From Thiomonas sp. (GTDB lineage Bacteria > Pseudomonadota > Gammaproteobacteria > Burkholderiales > Burkholderiaceae_C): a stretch of 13,926 nucleotides of DNA. The first letter of the stretch is position 1, and each line of letters starts with the position of its first letter. Positions 856 to 10,252 of this stretch are shown here, piece by piece. Under the pieces are notes generated by a model, which ran no database searches, was not told where the DNA came from, and worked only from the letters and a program-made list of their open reading frames with translations. The translations under genes were made by a program, and so were the position numbers. Location: the NCBI GenBank assembly GCA_028706735.1, contig JAQTVS010000037.1, positions 1 through 13,926 on the forward strand, given 5' to 3'.

Positions 856-2202
856 TCAATAACGATTGACCTTGTGCAGCAGATCGCCAGACAGCGGCAG
901 AGTGGCCAGCAGATGCGCGATGCGCGCGGCGCTCTGGCCGTCACCATAGACGTTTGCTTCCGGGGGCGGCCAGGGCCCGTCGGCCAGCGCCTGCCGCACG
1001 GCGGCTTCGATGACGCTGGCCTGCGGCGGCACGTCCACCGTGTTGGCGTTGCGCTCGCGCAGGTTCTGGCGGCTGCCGACGTTGACTACCCGCGTGTCCA
1101 GGCTGGCCGCCTCGATGATGCCCGACGACGAATTGCCCGCCAGCACCGCGGCGTGGCGCAGCGCGGCCAGATAGTCGGCGCGCGGCAGATGGGTGATGCG
1201 GTGAAACCCTGTCCACTGCTGCGCCCGCAGCAAGGCTTCGATGGGGCCCGAACCCGCGTCGGCATTGGGCGCCAGCCACACCACGCTGAAGGCCGACCCC
1301 GCCCCGGCGGCCCGCAGGCCGTCGAGCAGCGCCTGGGTCTGCGCGGCGGCGTCGTCCGCTTCCTGCACCACGGGGTGGAAAAGAACGAGGGCGTAAGGGC
1401 GCTCGGCCAGGCTCCCCCTCCCGGCCTCCCCCACTGGTGGAGGAGGAGCAAACCCTCTCACTACAACATCCGTGCCCCCTCCCCACAAGTGGGGAGGGTT
1501 GGGGAGGGCATCTTCTCCTCCCAGCCTCTCCCAAAGCGTGGGAGAGGAGTGATTGCTCCCTCCCCACAAGTGGGGAGGGTTGGGGAGGGGAGCCTGCCGC
1601 GCCAGCGCCGTCTGCAAAGCCTGCAGCGCGGCCTCGCGCGGAAGATGCAGCGCATCAGACAGATCGTCCAGCCCCGGCGCGCCCACCACATGCACACGGT
1701 GCGGGTCTTCGCCCATGGCGATGAGGCGCTCGCGTGACTGCGCCGTGGCGCAGAAATGCAGCGCCGCGAGCTTGCTGATGGCATGGCGCACCGGCTCGTC
1801 CACGGTGCCAGAGCGCTCGCCGCCGTGCAGGTGGATCGACGGCACGCCCAGATGCAGCGCGGCAATGGCCCCCGCGAGCATCTCACCCCGGTCGCCCAGC
1901 AGCAGCAGTGCGTCAGGCTGCTCGGCCTGCAGCACCGGCACCAGCCCGGCGAGCGTCTGGCTGATCGCCCGCGTCATGCCCGCACCGTCGCGCGCGCCCA
2001 CGTCGCTGGGAATGCGCGCCGCGATGCGCAGCCCGCTGGCCGCGATGTCGTCCACCGTGTGGCCGTAGTCGGGGTGGAGATGCATGCCCGTGACCGCCAC
2101 CGCCACCTCCAGTCCCGGACACGAAGCGGCCGCGTGCAAAGTCTGGCGCATCAGCCCGAAGTCGGCACGGGTGCCAGAGAGATAGAGAATGCGGCGGGGC
2201 AT
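856..2202 (-). CDS. neuC: Hydrolysing UDP/GDP-GlcNAc 2-epimerase (NeuC/LegG) with an in-frame repeat insertion
   Basis: This 448-residue protein belongs to the NeuC family, which removes the nucleotide from NDP-GlcNAc-type sugars and epimerises C2 to give the mannosamine precursor of nonulosonates. Visible motifs are SGTRADFGLM (9-18), GDRGEMLAG (103-111), HGGERSGTVDE (126-136), GNSSSGIIEA (356-365) and GSRQNLRER (376-384). These cover both Rossmann domains of the GT-B-like epimerase fold. The family is usually near 380 residues. The excess is a low-complexity insertion at about residues 204-267, between the two domains, translated from G/C-rich hairpin repeats. All recognisable active-site blocks lie outside it, so activity may survive. 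The ATG at 2202 has only a weak ribosome-binding site. The gene is separated from neuB by a defence-like segment, so it probably needs its own promoter. UDP or GDP specificity is not visible. Confidence 0.92.
   Translation of the reverse strand: MPRRILYLSGTRADFGLMRQTLHAAASCPGLEVAVAVTGMHLHPDYGHTVDDIAASGLRIAARIPSDVGARDGAGMTRAISQTLAGLVPVLQAEQPDALLLLGDRGEMLAGAIAALHLGVPSIHLHGGERSGTVDEPVRHAISKLAALHFCATAQSRERLIAMGEDPHRVHVVGAPGLDDLSDALHLPREAALQALQTALARQAPLPNPPHLWGGSNHSSPTLWERLGGEDALPNPPHLWGGGTDVVVRGFAPPPPVGEAGRGSLAERPYALVLFHPVVQEADDAAAQTQALLDGLRAAGAGSAFSVVWLAPNADAGSGPIEALLRAQQWTGFHRITHLPRADYLAALRHAAVLAGNSSSGIIEAASLDTRVVNVGSRQNLRERNANTVDVPPQASVIEAAVRQALADGPWPPPEANVYGDGQSAARIAHLLATLPLSGDLLHKVNRY
1402..1593. 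repeat. 81-bp hairpin repeat array inside neuC
   Basis: Stacked inverted repeats interrupt neuC without breaking its frame. CCTCCCCACAAGTGGGGAGG occurs at 1478-1497 and again at 1559-1578, exactly 81 bases apart. Between them, 1525-1547 is a different hairpin (arms CCTCTCCCAA and GTGGGAGAGG, loop AGC). A further hairpin with a 2-base loop is at 1425-1446. The linker AGTGATTGCT after the 1525-1547 hairpin is the reverse complement, with one change, of the linker in the array at 8713-8955. This is therefore the same element in the opposite orientation. It encodes PLPNPPHLWGG twice. The outer limits are judged from where NeuC similarity stops and are approximate. Confidence 0.85.
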
Positions 2203-4061: not shown

Positions 4062-5894
4062 TTATGCCTGAATGCGAGCAGCGAATTTTCCGCTCCCGCT
4101 CGTCCCAATCACCAAGCGCTGCGTCGCCCGCGTCGCCCCCACATAGAACAGCCGCGCTTCCTCCCGCTCGTCTTCGCCCTCGGCGGGCATGTGGCCCACG
4201 CCCACCAGGGCCACCACGGGGAACTCCAGGCCTTTGCTCACGTGCAGGGTCATCACCTTGATATTGTCCTGGCCGGGGTCGAACTGCCCGGATTTCTTGC
4301 GCACCTGGTGTGGCAGGCCGCGCCGGGCCAGCGCGTCGGCGCACAGGTCCATTTCGCTCCAGCGCCGGCAGAGGATGGCCATGTCGCCCCAGGCGTGGCC
4401 TTCGCGGTGGGCGGTGGCCAGCAGGTCGGCCACCTGGGCGGCTTCTTCGCGCAGGGTGGGCAGGCGGATGATGAGCGGCGCCTCGCCGTCGCGCCCGCAG
4501 CTCACGGGCTTGAGCAGGGGCACGCCGTCGTCGTCTTTGTCTTCGGCGGTCAGTAGATCAGCGGCAACGAGGCTGGCGGTCTGCAATATCTGCCGCGTGT
4601 TGCGGTAGTTGATCTTGAGGATGGTGGTGCGACCCTGCGCCTGGATGCCCACGCGCTTGAAGCTGAAGTTCTTCTTCTGCTTGCGTTCGTAGATGCTCTG
4701 CGCGTCATCAAACAGCACGAGCAGGCTGTTGGTGGCGGGGTCGACCATCTGCACCACCAGACGCAGCCATTCGGGCGCGAAGTCGTGGCCTTCGTCAATG
4801 AGCACGGCCTGGTATTGCCCGCTGGGGATCTGGCGGCGGCCCACGCCGGTGATGACGCGCTGGACCATGTCGGCCATCTTGTCGGTGACCGACTGGTTGT
4901 TGGCGGGCAGGCTTTGCCCGTAGGCCACCAGCTGGTCGCGGCACCACTTGTGGAAGTGCACCGCGTGCACGCGCTCAGCTATGCCTTTGGCGGCCATCAC
5001 GCGCGCGAGTTGCCGGGCCAACGGTTCGTTGTAGCAAAGGATGAGGATGGGTTTGCTGGATGCGGCGTCTTTGGTGTTGACGGCCTTGGCCAGGTGTTCG
5101 GCCCGGCAGCCCAGCAGCATGGTCTTGCCCGAACCGGCCACGCCGTGGATGACGCGGTGCCCGTCGCCCAGGCTGCGGGCCAGCTGCTCCTGCTGCAGGT
5201 CCATCACCCGCATGATGCTGGGCAGTTCGGCGGCTTCGTCGTCATCGTTGAACAGCTCGCAGGTCACCTGCACACGCACCTCGGGGAACATGATCCAGCG
5301 CACCCGGTCCATCTGCGGCAGCGACATGACGCCGCCCATCATGAAGGGGAACATGTCCCACAGGCGGCTTTGCAGCGCCTCGGGCTCCACCGCCTCAAGC
5401 ATCTCGTCCTGGCAGACCACGCGGTGCGGTTCGATGGCGTGGGCGAGCTCGGCCTTGTCGAACTGCGCGCGGGTGATGTTGGGCAGCACCACGCCGTAGC
5501 TCCACGGAAAGGCCAGCTTGCCCTGGTGTCGGCCGTCATGCTGCACCAACTGCGGGTCGCGCTCCAGCGCGTGAACCACTTGGTGCGCGTACTGCCGGGC
5601 CTGCTCCAGCGGGTTGGGAATGGTCTTGGGGCCGAGTTCGCCGTGGATGTCCCAGGTCTGCTTGTTGGCCTGGATGAGAGTAGAGAGCCGGAAATCCTTG
5701 ACCTCCAGAATCAGAATGCCCCGGCGCGGGTGCATGACGACAAAGTCCGGGTGCTGGTGCCGGGGCCCGACGGCCACGTCGTACCAGAGCAGGTAGTCGG
5801 CGTCGAGCTTGTCTTCCAGCCGCTCGGCGGTGCGGCGCTCGCCGGGCGTCATGCGCGAAACGCAGGAGCCCAGCGCAGGAATCAGGGTGGCCAT
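4062..5894 (-). CDS. NERD-nuclease / UvrD-type SF1 helicase fusion
   Basis: A 610-residue protein. Residues about 15-130 form a NERD (nuclease-related) domain with PDFVVMHPRRGILILEVKDF at 49-68, giving D50, E64 and K66 of the PD-(D/E)xK-like site. A superfamily 1 helicase follows: Walker A HGVAGSGKT (250-258), Walker B/motif II LIDEGHD (365-371), LVLFDDAQSIY (392-402), INYRNTRQI (428-436), motif V VMTLHVSKGLEF (547-558) and motif VI RLFYVGATRAT (581-591). All motifs are intact. It should be an ATP-driven DNA translocase or helicase with a possible nuclease head; fusions of this kind occur in repair and phage-defence settings. The ATG at 5894 has an AAGAGA ribosome-binding site; an upstream in-frame start adds 15 unlikely residues. 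It faces away from mntA-hepT and converges with the HEPN gene. The biological target is unknown. Confidence 0.9.
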   Translation of the reverse strand: MATLIPALGSCVSRMTPGERRTAERLEDKLDADYLLWYDVAVGPRHQHPDFVVMHPRRGILILEVKDFRLSTLIQANKQTWDIHGELGPKTIPNPLEQARQYAHQVVHALERDPQLVQHDGRHQGKLAFPWSYGVVLPNITRAQFDKAELAHAIEPHRVVCQDEMLEAVEPEALQSRLWDMFPFMMGGVMSLPQMDRVRWIMFPEVRVQVTCELFNDDDEAAELPSIMRVMDLQQEQLARSLGDGHRVIHGVAGSGKTMLLGCRAEHLAKAVNTKDAASSKPILILCYNEPLARQLARVMAAKGIAERVHAVHFHKWCRDQLVAYGQSLPANNQSVTDKMADMVQRVITGVGRRQIPSGQYQAVLIDEGHDFAPEWLRLVVQMVDPATNSLLVLFDDAQSIYERKQKKNFSFKRVGIQAQGRTTILKINYRNTRQILQTASLVAADLLTAEDKDDDGVPLLKPVSCGRDGEAPLIIRLPTLREEAAQVADLLATAHREGHAWGDMAILCRRWSEMDLCADALARRGLPHQVRKKSGQFDPGQDNIKVMTLHVSKGLEFPVVALVGVGHMPAEGEDEREEARLFYVGATRATQRLVIGTSGSGKFAARIQA

Positions 5895-6056
5895 GTTGTC
5901 TCTTGTGTGCTTTCTTGCCTGAGGTGAATGATGCCGCAATTTCGGGGGAGAGACGAAAACTTCGCAGCCTGCAGCTTGATCGGCGCACGGATGTTCAATG
6001 CTTTGGCGTGAAACGTTGCCGACCCATTCCGGCCATTAGGCGGGTGTGCAACATCC

Positions 6057-8578: not shown

Positions 8579-10252
8579 TCAGGCCGGGTCAGGTGGAGTG
8601 GGGCGGGGGTGGGCTGCGAGCAGGGCCAGGGCCTGCTTGCTCACCCGGTCTGCGGCAGTGCTGGGCGCCCCCACGCTCGGGCTTTGCCCTCGCTGCCCGC
8701 CAAGGGCGCCATCCCCACCCCGACCCTCCCCACAAGTGGAGAGGGAGCAGTCACTCCTCCCCCACGATGTGGGGGAGGTTGGGAGGGGGAGACGCCCACC
8801 CCGACCCTCCCCACAAGTGGAGAGGGAGCAGTCACTCCTCCCCCACGATGTGGGGGAGGTTGGGAGGGGGAGACGCCCACCCCGGCCCTCCCCACAAGTG
8901 GAGAGGGAGCAGCCACTCCTTCCCCACGTTGTGGGGAAGGTTGGGAGGGGGAGTTGCCCGCCTTGGGGCGGCCCGGCGGTGGGGCCGTCGCGGACGGCTG
9001 CGCGCTCCATGCTGGGTTGCGCGAGCAGGGCGGCCAGCGTCTGCGGCAGATCGCTCAGGTGACACGCGGCATCGGCCACGCCCAGCGCGAGAAAGGGCAT
9101 GGCGGGCGCGGCGATGGAGTCGAGCAGTTGCAGCACGCGCCTGCCCGTCAGATGGGCTTCGAGTGCGACGGTGGAGGTGCCGGTGATGACGGCGTCCACC
9201 GCGTGCAGCAGCGGGTGCAGCGGCTCGGAGGCGGCCGAGACGCGCAGTTGCGGATCGCCGGGCAGGGCAGGCGAGGGCTGCGAGGGGTGGGGGCGCACGA
9301 TGAGCGTCCAGTCGGGATGCGGGCGCACGCTGTCGATGCAGGCTTGCAGCACCCGTTCGGGCAGATGCGGGTCGCCCTGGCGGCCGGGCGAGGCCGGGTG
9401 CGTGGCGGGCTCGGGTTGCAACGCGAGCAGGATGAGTGTTCGCTGCGGCGCACCCAACTCGGCGCGCAACGCGAGCCCGGCCGCGTGCGTTTGCGGGGCG
9501 CCCAGCGCATCGAACGCCGGGTTGCCGGTGACGGCGATGCGCTCGGGCGGCCATCCGGCCCGGATGAGGTTGTCGCGCACGGCTTCAGACAACACGCAGA
9601 CCCGGCTGGGATGGCGGGTGCGGGCGGCGAAGGCGTCTCCGACAAAAGCCGACGGGCCGCCCCGAGGCTTTTGCTCCCCCGAGGGAGGCGAAGTCCGCTC
9701 GCGGGCTTCCGGGGGCGGTGCACCTATGGCAAACAGGTCGAGCAACGCCAGGCTGGGAATGCCCGCCTCGGTAGCGGCATCGACCACGGCTTGTTCGCTG
9801 CGCGGCGAGTTGGTCGCCAGCACCAGATCGGGCTGCAGATGGTTGAGCACGCTGCGAAAAAAATGCAGCGGATAAAAACCGTGGCGACCCTTGGCCGCGA
9901 GCAAGGTTTGCGCCTCTTCCGTGCCGAGCTGTTGCTGCAGATCCCAGGCGTTGATGCCGAGGTAGGCCACGGTTTCGGCTTCTGAAATGTCGGGATGGGT
10001 GTTGCCCGGCTGCAGCGCGCGGCCCAGGTTCAGCGCCTGCGTCTGCTCGCCGGGCGACAGCAAGTGCAGCAGATCGGCATAGCCCAGCGGCGTTTCGCCG
10101 GCATCGCGCGCTACGCGGGCTGCGGTGGTGAGCGCCAGCAGGGTGATGTCGAGGTCTGGACGCTGCTCGCGCAGGGCGCGCAGCACCGGCAGCATCATGA
10201 CAATGTGGCCGCCGCCGTAGGCCACGGCAAGGATGCGCTGTGCCCGGCTCAT
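8579..10252 (-). CDS. GT-B-like glycosyltransferase carrying repeat insertions
   Basis: A 557-residue protein with two Rossmann-like halves. The N-terminal half begins AVAYGGGHIVMMLPVLRAL (9-27), with DLVLATNSPRSEQAVV at 142-157. The C-terminal half has VCVLSEAVRDNLI (218-230), VTGNPAFDAL (241-250), LIVRPHPS (317-324) and ITGTSTVALEAHLTGRRV (356-373), the RPHP and STxxxEA pattern of GT-B and epimerase-fold enzymes. Next to neuA it is a good candidate for the transferase that uses the CMP-nonulosonate, but donor and acceptor are inferred. The ATG at 10252 overlaps the asparagine synthase stop as ATGA; a longer upstream frame only shadows that gene. Residues about 432-513 are three copies of a 27-residue repeat (for example LPLPTSPTSWGRSD) encoded by the 81-bp hairpin array, and 519-528 hold a second repeat. 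Residues 180-205 also look inserted. Without these the protein would be near 420 residues. Confidence 0.82.
   Translation of the reverse strand: MSRAQRILAVAYGGGHIVMMLPVLRALREQRPDLDITLLALTTAARVARDAGETPLGYADLLHLLSPGEQTQALNLGRALQPGNTHPDISEAETVAYLGINAWDLQQQLGTEEAQTLLAAKGRHGFYPLHFFRSVLNHLQPDLVLATNSPRSEQAVVDAATEAGIPSLALLDLFAIGAPPPEARERTSPPSGEQKPRGGPSAFVGDAFAARTRHPSRVCVLSEAVRDNLIRAGWPPERIAVTGNPAFDALGAPQTHAAGLALRAELGAPQRTLILLALQPEPATHPASPGRQGDPHLPERVLQACIDSVRPHPDWTLIVRPHPSQPSPALPGDPQLRVSAASEPLHPLLHAVDAVITGTSTVALEAHLTGRRVLQLLDSIAAPAMPFLALGVADAACHLSDLPQTLAALLAQPSMERAAVRDGPTAGPPQGGQLPLPTFPTTWGRSGCSLSTCGEGRGGRLPLPTSPTSWGRSDCSLSTCGEGRGGRLPLPTSPTSWGRSDCSLSTCGEGRGGDGALGGQRGQSPSVGAPSTAADRVSKQALALLAAHPRPTPPDPA
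8675..8698. repeat. 24-bp dispersed repeat (copy 2), next to the 81-bp array
   Basis: It matches 7356-7379 in neuB at 22 of 24 bases and encodes the same GQRGQSPS peptide. It adjoins the 81-bp array, which starts about 15 bases to its right, so the two may belong to one composite repeat. Confidence 0.65.
8713..8955. repeat. Three tandem 81-bp double-hairpin repeats
   Basis: Three units with an exact 81-base period. Each has hairpin A (CCTCCCCAC, AA, GTGGAGAGG) at 8725, 8806 and 8887, the linker GAGCAGTCACT or a one-base variant, and hairpin B at 8756-8778, 8837-8859 and 8918-8940. Hairpin B has perfect 10-bp arms, CCTCCCCCAC and GTGGGGGAGG, around GAT. The third unit has CCTTCCCCAC and GTGGGGAAGG around GTT, a paired change that keeps the stem. 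Since 81 is 27 codons, copy number can change without shifting the frame. The same element lies inverted in neuC. Confidence 0.92.
9641..9717. repeat. Possible small palindromic insertion in the glycosyltransferase
   Basis: Two adjacent hairpins, CTCCC-CCGA-GGGAG at 9674-9687 and GAAGTCCGC-TC-GCGGGCTTC at 9690-9709, are translated as residues about 179-206, a Pro/Arg/Gly/Ser-rich stretch (RERTSPPSGEQKPRGGPSAF) unlike the flanking protein. It looks like another in-frame repeat insertion between the two domains. No second copy exists in the window, so this is tentative. Confidence 0.4.

Follow-up and report, generated by a model that had tools for sequence, protein, structure and literature searches.

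In-frame copies of a genus-restricted palindromic repeat in neuC, a glycosyltransferase gene and other genes of Thiomonas

REPs are mostly intergenic, and in several bacteria they are also found inside open reading frames (Di Nocera et al. 2013, PMC3733652). According to the passages of that paper covered here, intragenic REP dimers encode 20-30 amino acids, clusters in Thauera and R. conorii encode 43-82 amino acids, and the host genes include uvrA and other repair genes. The same passages describe the CGTC-ended RPE of Rickettsia, inserted in frame in genes for probably functional proteins. In the covered parts of PMC2817692 and PMC3116915, BIMEs and REPINs are made of two inverted palindromes with a short spacer, and they show high copy number and tandem growth, all of which the element described below shares. 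In-gene palindromic repeats are already published elsewhere, and the Thiomonas case is of that kind, with differences.

The window is a stretch of 13,926 nt (C19:1-13926) from a Thiomonas draft genome of 2.93 Mb in 425 contigs (G000, here called the host; other genomes keep their G numbers). An earlier note on this DNA had claimed that one double-hairpin element lies in frame in neuC and in a glycosyltransferase gene (GT), in opposite orientations relative to gene sense, and this is confirmed. We consider it most probable, at roughly 86%, that this is a genus-restricted element of the REP/BIME/REPIN type, presumably non-autonomous, which is tolerated in genes when in frame. The features of the window are as follows.

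856..2202, minus strand: neuC-type gene for a hydrolysing UDP-GlcNAc 2-epimerase, 448 aa (open reading frame; TIGR03568 in two stretches, above cut-off)
About 1411..1593, minus strand: neuC insert relative to insert-free orthologues, 61 codons, APLPNPPHLWGG...GEAGRGS, between two domains (orthologue alignment)
1413..1508, plus strand: neuC repeat unit 1, two hairpins with a long linker, resembling the single unit of G006
1513..1589, plus strand: neuC repeat unit 2, extra in the host genome
8579..10252, minus strand: glycosyltransferase-like gene (GT), 557 aa from MSRAQRIL (open reading frame and orthologues)
9641..9724, minus strand: second in-frame GT insert, 28 codons, GAPPPEARERTSPPSGEQKPRGGPSAFV, similar to the outer repeat and without the two-hairpin unit
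8954..9004, minus strand: segment preceding the GT units, RAAVRDGPTAGPPQGGQ, with the first half of the outer repeat, GGGCCGCCCCAAGGCGGG
8876..8952, minus strand: GT repeat unit 1, first in gene order
8795..8871, minus strand: GT repeat unit 2
8714..8790, minus strand: GT repeat unit 3
8660..8716, minus strand: segment following the GT units, GDGALGGQRGQSPSVGAPS, with the second half of the outer repeat
8582..8659, minus strand: GT C-terminal tail, TAADRVSKQALALLAA..., downstream of the insert and aligning with insert-free orthologues

The element consists of two facing G+C-rich hairpins in a unit of about 77-81 nt. In GT, the array extends over 8714-8953 with a period of 81, 3.0 copies and 96% matches (Tandem Repeats Finder); its linkers are AGCAGTCACT in the first two units and AGCAGCCACT in the third. 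In neuC, where the reading frame is kept across the repeat, the hairpin linker is AGTGATTGCT, the inverted ends of the unit are GCTCCCC/GGGGAGC, and 1473-1591 matches 8712-8830 in inverted orientation, with 83% identity over 119 nt. The earlier note had given both arrays an exact 81-base period. This is true of the three GT units and of the second neuC hairpins (1473 to 1554), and fails for the neuC unit starts, which are 101 nt apart because one unit, with its longer linker, spans 96 nt. Its other readings of the two arrays stand: AGCAGTCACT, once reverse-complemented, agrees with the neuC linker in all but one base, both genes are on the minus strand, the translations show both repeat strands free of stops in the frames used, and they contain the quoted peptides, PLPNPPHLWGG in NeuC and LPLPTSPTSWGRSD in GT. 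Elsewhere in the window, 2505-2914 and 4079-4402 are, in pieces, 74-100% alike to part of a helicase-like gene (4062-5939) and form an adjoining apparent remnant.

Copies beyond the window, on which the earlier note had made its reading depend, are plentiful. A search of the host's own genome with the neuC segment, in which 40 of 54 candidates were scored, gives at least 46 matches, far above chance. With a covariance model built from 38 units (consensus TCCCCCTCCCAACCTCCCCCACGnCGTGGGGGAGGnGAGATCACTCCCTCCCCACTnGTGGGGAGGGTTGGGGTGGG) and a threshold of E<=0.001, the host has at least 95 units at 75 places, with 150 of 1214 candidates scored. This count is what is left of 136 model rows after 41 rows, weaker and on the opposite strand of places already represented, were taken out by hand. 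Counting rows on both strands, there are 134 in G005, 72 in G006 and 13 in G008. In the genus survey, which scored the best 79 candidates at most per genome, 9 of 13 genus genomes match at E<=1e-6, against 4 of 47 genomes from elsewhere in the family and order, each with one weak match. As far as searched, the repeat family is restricted to the genus Thiomonas. Spread by plasmids or phages was considered and rejected: the plasmid collection gave a single weak match, 76% identical, to an Aeromonas record, and the phage sequences searched gave none for the unit.

In terms of structure, stem partners pair in 96.7% of 645 cells across copies and in 64-70% when they are slid by 1-3 columns, a figure favoured by design, since the structure was taken from the alignment on which the pairing was scored. 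Compared with column shuffles, the covariation score is high, being reached in 1 of 500; pairs changed on both sides are weak at best (18 of 500 reach the value) and further pair types give no signal (151 of 500). A chance or low-complexity origin of the repeat was rejected on copy number and stem pairing. The departures from pairing in the unit alignment are mostly T-G pairs on one strand, with 11 U-G versus 2 C-A at columns 56/68, and from this excess the hairpin structure may count on one strand only. Half units occur besides full ones.

The period of arrays is often 78-81 nt, and in 15 of 23 cases neighbouring units are spaced by a multiple of three, counted over all arrays, intergenic included, with some matches partial. 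The 81-nt period is therefore not specific to genes, and the idea that it evolved for them was dropped. The earlier note had suggested that a 27-codon unit without stops would allow invasion of genes; such invasion is seen, and periods divisible by three are also frequent in intergenic arrays. As for stops, the six frames are open in 73, 61, 41, 72, 30 and 72 of 76 host units, and 67% of base-shuffled units are stop-free.

At least 10 of the 75 host places lie in frame within genes, namely neuC, GT, mnmC, radA, comEC, pgl, cca, flhF, a membrane protein gene and the tail of pelF; the other 65 are intergenic or undecided. The flanks of all places were scored by a codon model trained on 129 long open reading frames, which by itself flagged four (neuC, mnmC, radA and the membrane protein), the rest coming from translations and family or orthologue matches. 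The first eight genes named have family or orthologue support on both sides of the unit. For the membrane protein, family searches found no match and the coding score is the sole support; in pelF, the unit comes after the family domain, in a C-terminal tail. The pelF gene (L041:1539-3689, minus strand) ends in four 26-aa repeats of the ADAAEPPQGGGSPPGGQRGRSPNVGA type, similar to the outer repeat, behind the two-hairpin unit. The frames of mnmC, cca and the membrane protein run off contig ends.

Since the in-gene set was found through open frames, gene-breaking copies would count as intergenic. For the same reason, a figure of 11 of 11 open frames, with an estimate of 1e-6, was discarded as circular and is not used as evidence.

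In G005 and G006, each assembled in two contigs, 41 and 27 places were read, against 134 and 72 rows. Units inside genes were found in mpl, radA, uvrA, neuC and gshB of G005, and in GT, a copper-type P-ATPase, radA, uvrA, mnmC and an MmeI-like DNA methyltransferase of G006. These gene counts are taken without the doubtful cases, which are L244 and a DUF559/biotin-ligase junction in both genomes (L200, L237). In the copper-type P-ATPase (L229), outer repeats surround the unit and the GEGLNDGPAL motif follows a few dozen residues later, and in the MmeI-like methyltransferase/restriction gene (L243) the unit lies in frame between the methyltransferase and target-recognition domains. The surviving in-gene copies lie in loops or tails or where domains join. 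Of the six combinations of orientation and frame, five occur in genes (two mpl rows aside, at nt 9-148 of the stop-to-stop frame, upstream of the gene start).

Alignment with relatives, where the earlier note had looked for its decision, shows the insert segments absent in some species and carrying the character of a DNA repeat in others. Empty sites were read in neuC (6), GT (6), radA (3), cca (5), mpl (4) and pgl (1). The best matches of the neuC protein are in Thiomonas (T. bhubaneswarensis, T. delicata and others) and Burkholderiales genomes. The neuC insert is missing from G001, G003, G004, G008/T. bhubaneswarensis, G011 and T. delicata. A single unit is found in G005, G006 and G010, two units in the host, and L067 keeps a diverged remnant; the neuC of G002 is a fragment only and stands outside the empty-site count. 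A different in-frame insert near the C-terminus, VPHGRSE..., is found in neuC of G005, G010 and G003 (L053, L054, L056), and the window neuC is without it.

For GT, there are no two-hairpin units in G001, G002, G003, G005, G008 and L067, one in G006 and three in the host; G004 and G007 are outside this count, as the second half of their gene is too different to judge. Together, the 0/1/2 units of neuC and 0/1/3 of GT across species show both the invasion and the copy-number change inside genes that the earlier note had proposed. The second GT insert (9641..9724) is absent from G001, G002, G003, G005, G006 and G008 and has a diverged counterpart in L067, whose GT carries a further insert, HEKTSGRPKLAHPPRGAAIAQQQ, elsewhere in the gene.

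The radA site is empty in G001, G002 and G008, has the outer repeat only in G003 and G010, and has the nested unit in the host, G005 and G006. The insert is directly upstream of AVIDSIQ, which we take to be the Walker B strand of RadA, and alignment to the solved RadA 5lkm leaves five residues there. In cca, G001, G003, G005, G006 and G008 have an empty site, G010 carries the outer repeat alone, and the host has the nested unit. The mpl insert is present in G005, G006 and G010 and missing in G001, G002, G003 and G008 (read) and in G011 (by coordinates). In uvrA, G005 and G006 have the unit, and G003 and G008 a different, shorter linker; the uvrA genes of G007 and G010 were located and stand outside the site readings, as does the mnmC of G002, a split match. 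The mnmC unit is found in the host and G006, with unbroken matches in G001, G003, G005, G008 and G010. The pgl unit is exclusive to the host, with unbroken matches in seven relatives, of which G001 was read. In other species, comEC is too variable for a clean empty site.

At eight orthologous sites, 22 alleles with an insert were read and all have an open frame, including 3 with the outer repeat only; the reading required one frame, so that a frameshifted allele could have escaped it. We then compared dN/dS (Nei-Gojobori) in the insert and in its flanks. For radA, host versus G006, the insert has 0.59, the upstream part 0.10 and the downstream part 0.04. For neuC of the host, the upstream, insert and downstream values are 0.17, 0.72 and 0.16 against G006, 0.13, 0.29 and 0.16 against G005, and 0.20, 0.36 and 0.18 against G010. 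Flank values are 0.03-0.36 in pairs with the insert in both genes, and insert values, where at least 30 codons align, are 0.26-0.72, above both flanks each time and resting on few codons (30-65). The low values on both sides indicate that the interrupted genes are still under purifying selection, with the insert relaxed. The GT tail of 25 codons, with 0.36 against G006 and 0.71 against G005, is too short to weigh.

A second repeat, the outer repeat, with halves GGGCCGCCCCAAGGCGGG...CCCCCTCGGGGGGCAGCG, is present in several genes. One or both halves flank the unit at 13 of the 75 host places, always in one orientation (0 of 75 in the opposite one), and 23 of 5000 random positions in the same stretches have either half. 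Outer halves are found at 6 of 10 in-gene places versus 7 of 65 other places (Fisher p 0.0012, post hoc); the remaining four in-gene places lack them. At radA and at cca, species with the outer repeat alone stand beside species with the nested unit. Since outer halves are enriched at in-gene places and keep one orientation, we tentatively raise a two-step origin, possible rather than probable: the outer repeat would enter a gene in frame, then act as landing pad or gene-conversion template for the two-hairpin element, at a fixed internal position and orientation, and 27-codon multiplication would follow. In this reading the outer repeat would come first and the nested unit later.

Set against known systems, the element resembles REPs and BIMEs in its short palindromes, in its many dispersed copies, with 65 of 75 host places not assigned to a gene, and in the stem pairing kept across copies. 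With the GTAG/CGTC REPs, as described in the covered passages of PMC3733652, it shares the palindromic form, the mostly intergenic position, some copies in open reading frames and uvrA among the hosts. Unlike them, its consensus has neither tag: of 76 units, 7 have GTAG/CTAC anywhere within 6 nt and 15 have CGTC/GACG anywhere. Like RPE, it is inserted in frame in genes of functional proteins, function being judged by conservation, but the sequence is different and Rickettsia belongs to a different class of bacteria. The main text of PMC3733652 mentions neither "Thiomonas" nor "nested", and its covered passages show no gradation from empty to single and multiple units among orthologues. Within the library searched, no literature on Thiomonas reports such repeats by title or start of abstract.

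MITEs are short elements without coding capacity of their own and with inverted ends, which is also true of this one. The architecture of a REPIN is seen directly; that it moves as one unit is suggested by the empty sites, and half units are also present. Unlike BIMEs and REPINs with a RAYT, the Y1 transposase (PF01797) is missing in 6 of 9 element-bearing genomes: G005, G006, G008 and three further drafts. Of the 13 genus genomes, several of them drafts, 6 have it, and its presence does not follow the element: 3 of 9 element-bearing genomes carry it (host, G007, G010) versus 3 of 4 element-free ones (G003, G004, G011). The single copy of the host is flanked by other inverted repeats, GGGGTCAGGTCTAGC, with the nearest unit about 1.7 kb off. 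A RAYT as current mover was rejected on the six genomes where PF01797 is missing.

These results bear on what else the inserts could be. They could be ordinary, slowly diverging linkers, whose DNA looks repetitive through G+C-rich proline and glycine codons; the inserts are indeed Pro/Gly-rich and at linkers or loops. To this explanation we give the least credit, since the unit stands at 75 places, mostly outside genes, is used in both orientations and five frame and strand combinations, keeps its stem pairing, and is missing from orthologues. An origin as conserved linkers was ruled out by the empty sites, the intergenic copies and the opposite-strand translation. Another idea is that the insert is removed or skipped, by RNA excision or ribosome bypass, giving a protein without it. 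Bypassing elements exist in mitochondria and phage, and strong hairpins are possible in each unit, but neither removal nor bypass needs the open, stop-free frame kept in 22 of 22 alleles, and this is highly improbable.

That the host genes are pseudogenes, or the inserts errors of metagenome assembly, is very unlikely. The 425 contigs of the draft and the three frames running off contig ends speak for such errors; however, the neuC, GT, radA and mnmC sites are occupied in G005 or G006 and, because these have two contigs each, the inserts are not an artefact of draft assembly. Open frames and the low dN/dS of the flanks argue against pseudogenes. Lastly, recruitment is conceivable: the inserts may serve the enzymes as, for instance, regulators or spacers of adjustable length, with unit number being adaptive. 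Unit numbers vary between close species, and DNA-repair and surface-sugar genes recur among the hosts (radA, uvrA, neuC, GT). Still, we find recruitment unlikely: the raised dN/dS of the inserts reads as relaxation with no sign of positive selection, many species are without inserts, and the host genes are functionally unrelated.

We therefore return to the genus-restricted element tolerated in genes. Thiomonas genomes carry up to about a hundred copies, mostly between genes. Those entering genes appear to survive when the frame is kept and the unit is stop-free in the frame used, and gene-breaking ones would be removed by selection. The surviving inserts are presumably translated, judging from the frames, as Pro/Gly-rich spacers in either orientation, with peptides that would be disordered and nearly neutral. 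Copies inside genes would then change in number, with tandem duplication or slippage as the probable cause of unit gain.

What sets this case apart from published ones is the lack of the tags, a RAYT missing in most element-bearing genomes, two strands of one repeat probably both translated within one window, and orthologous sites that are empty, carry the outer repeat alone, or have nested or multiplied units. Within one genus and at the same codons of conserved genes, sites range over empty, outer repeat only, nested, and single, double or triple units, as seen across genes such as radA, cca, mpl, uvrA and neuC. Given this series, the question of how an "extragenic" palindrome becomes protein sequence can be tested with natural alleles. 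It suggests that proteins of Thiomonas may be lengthened 27 codons at a time.
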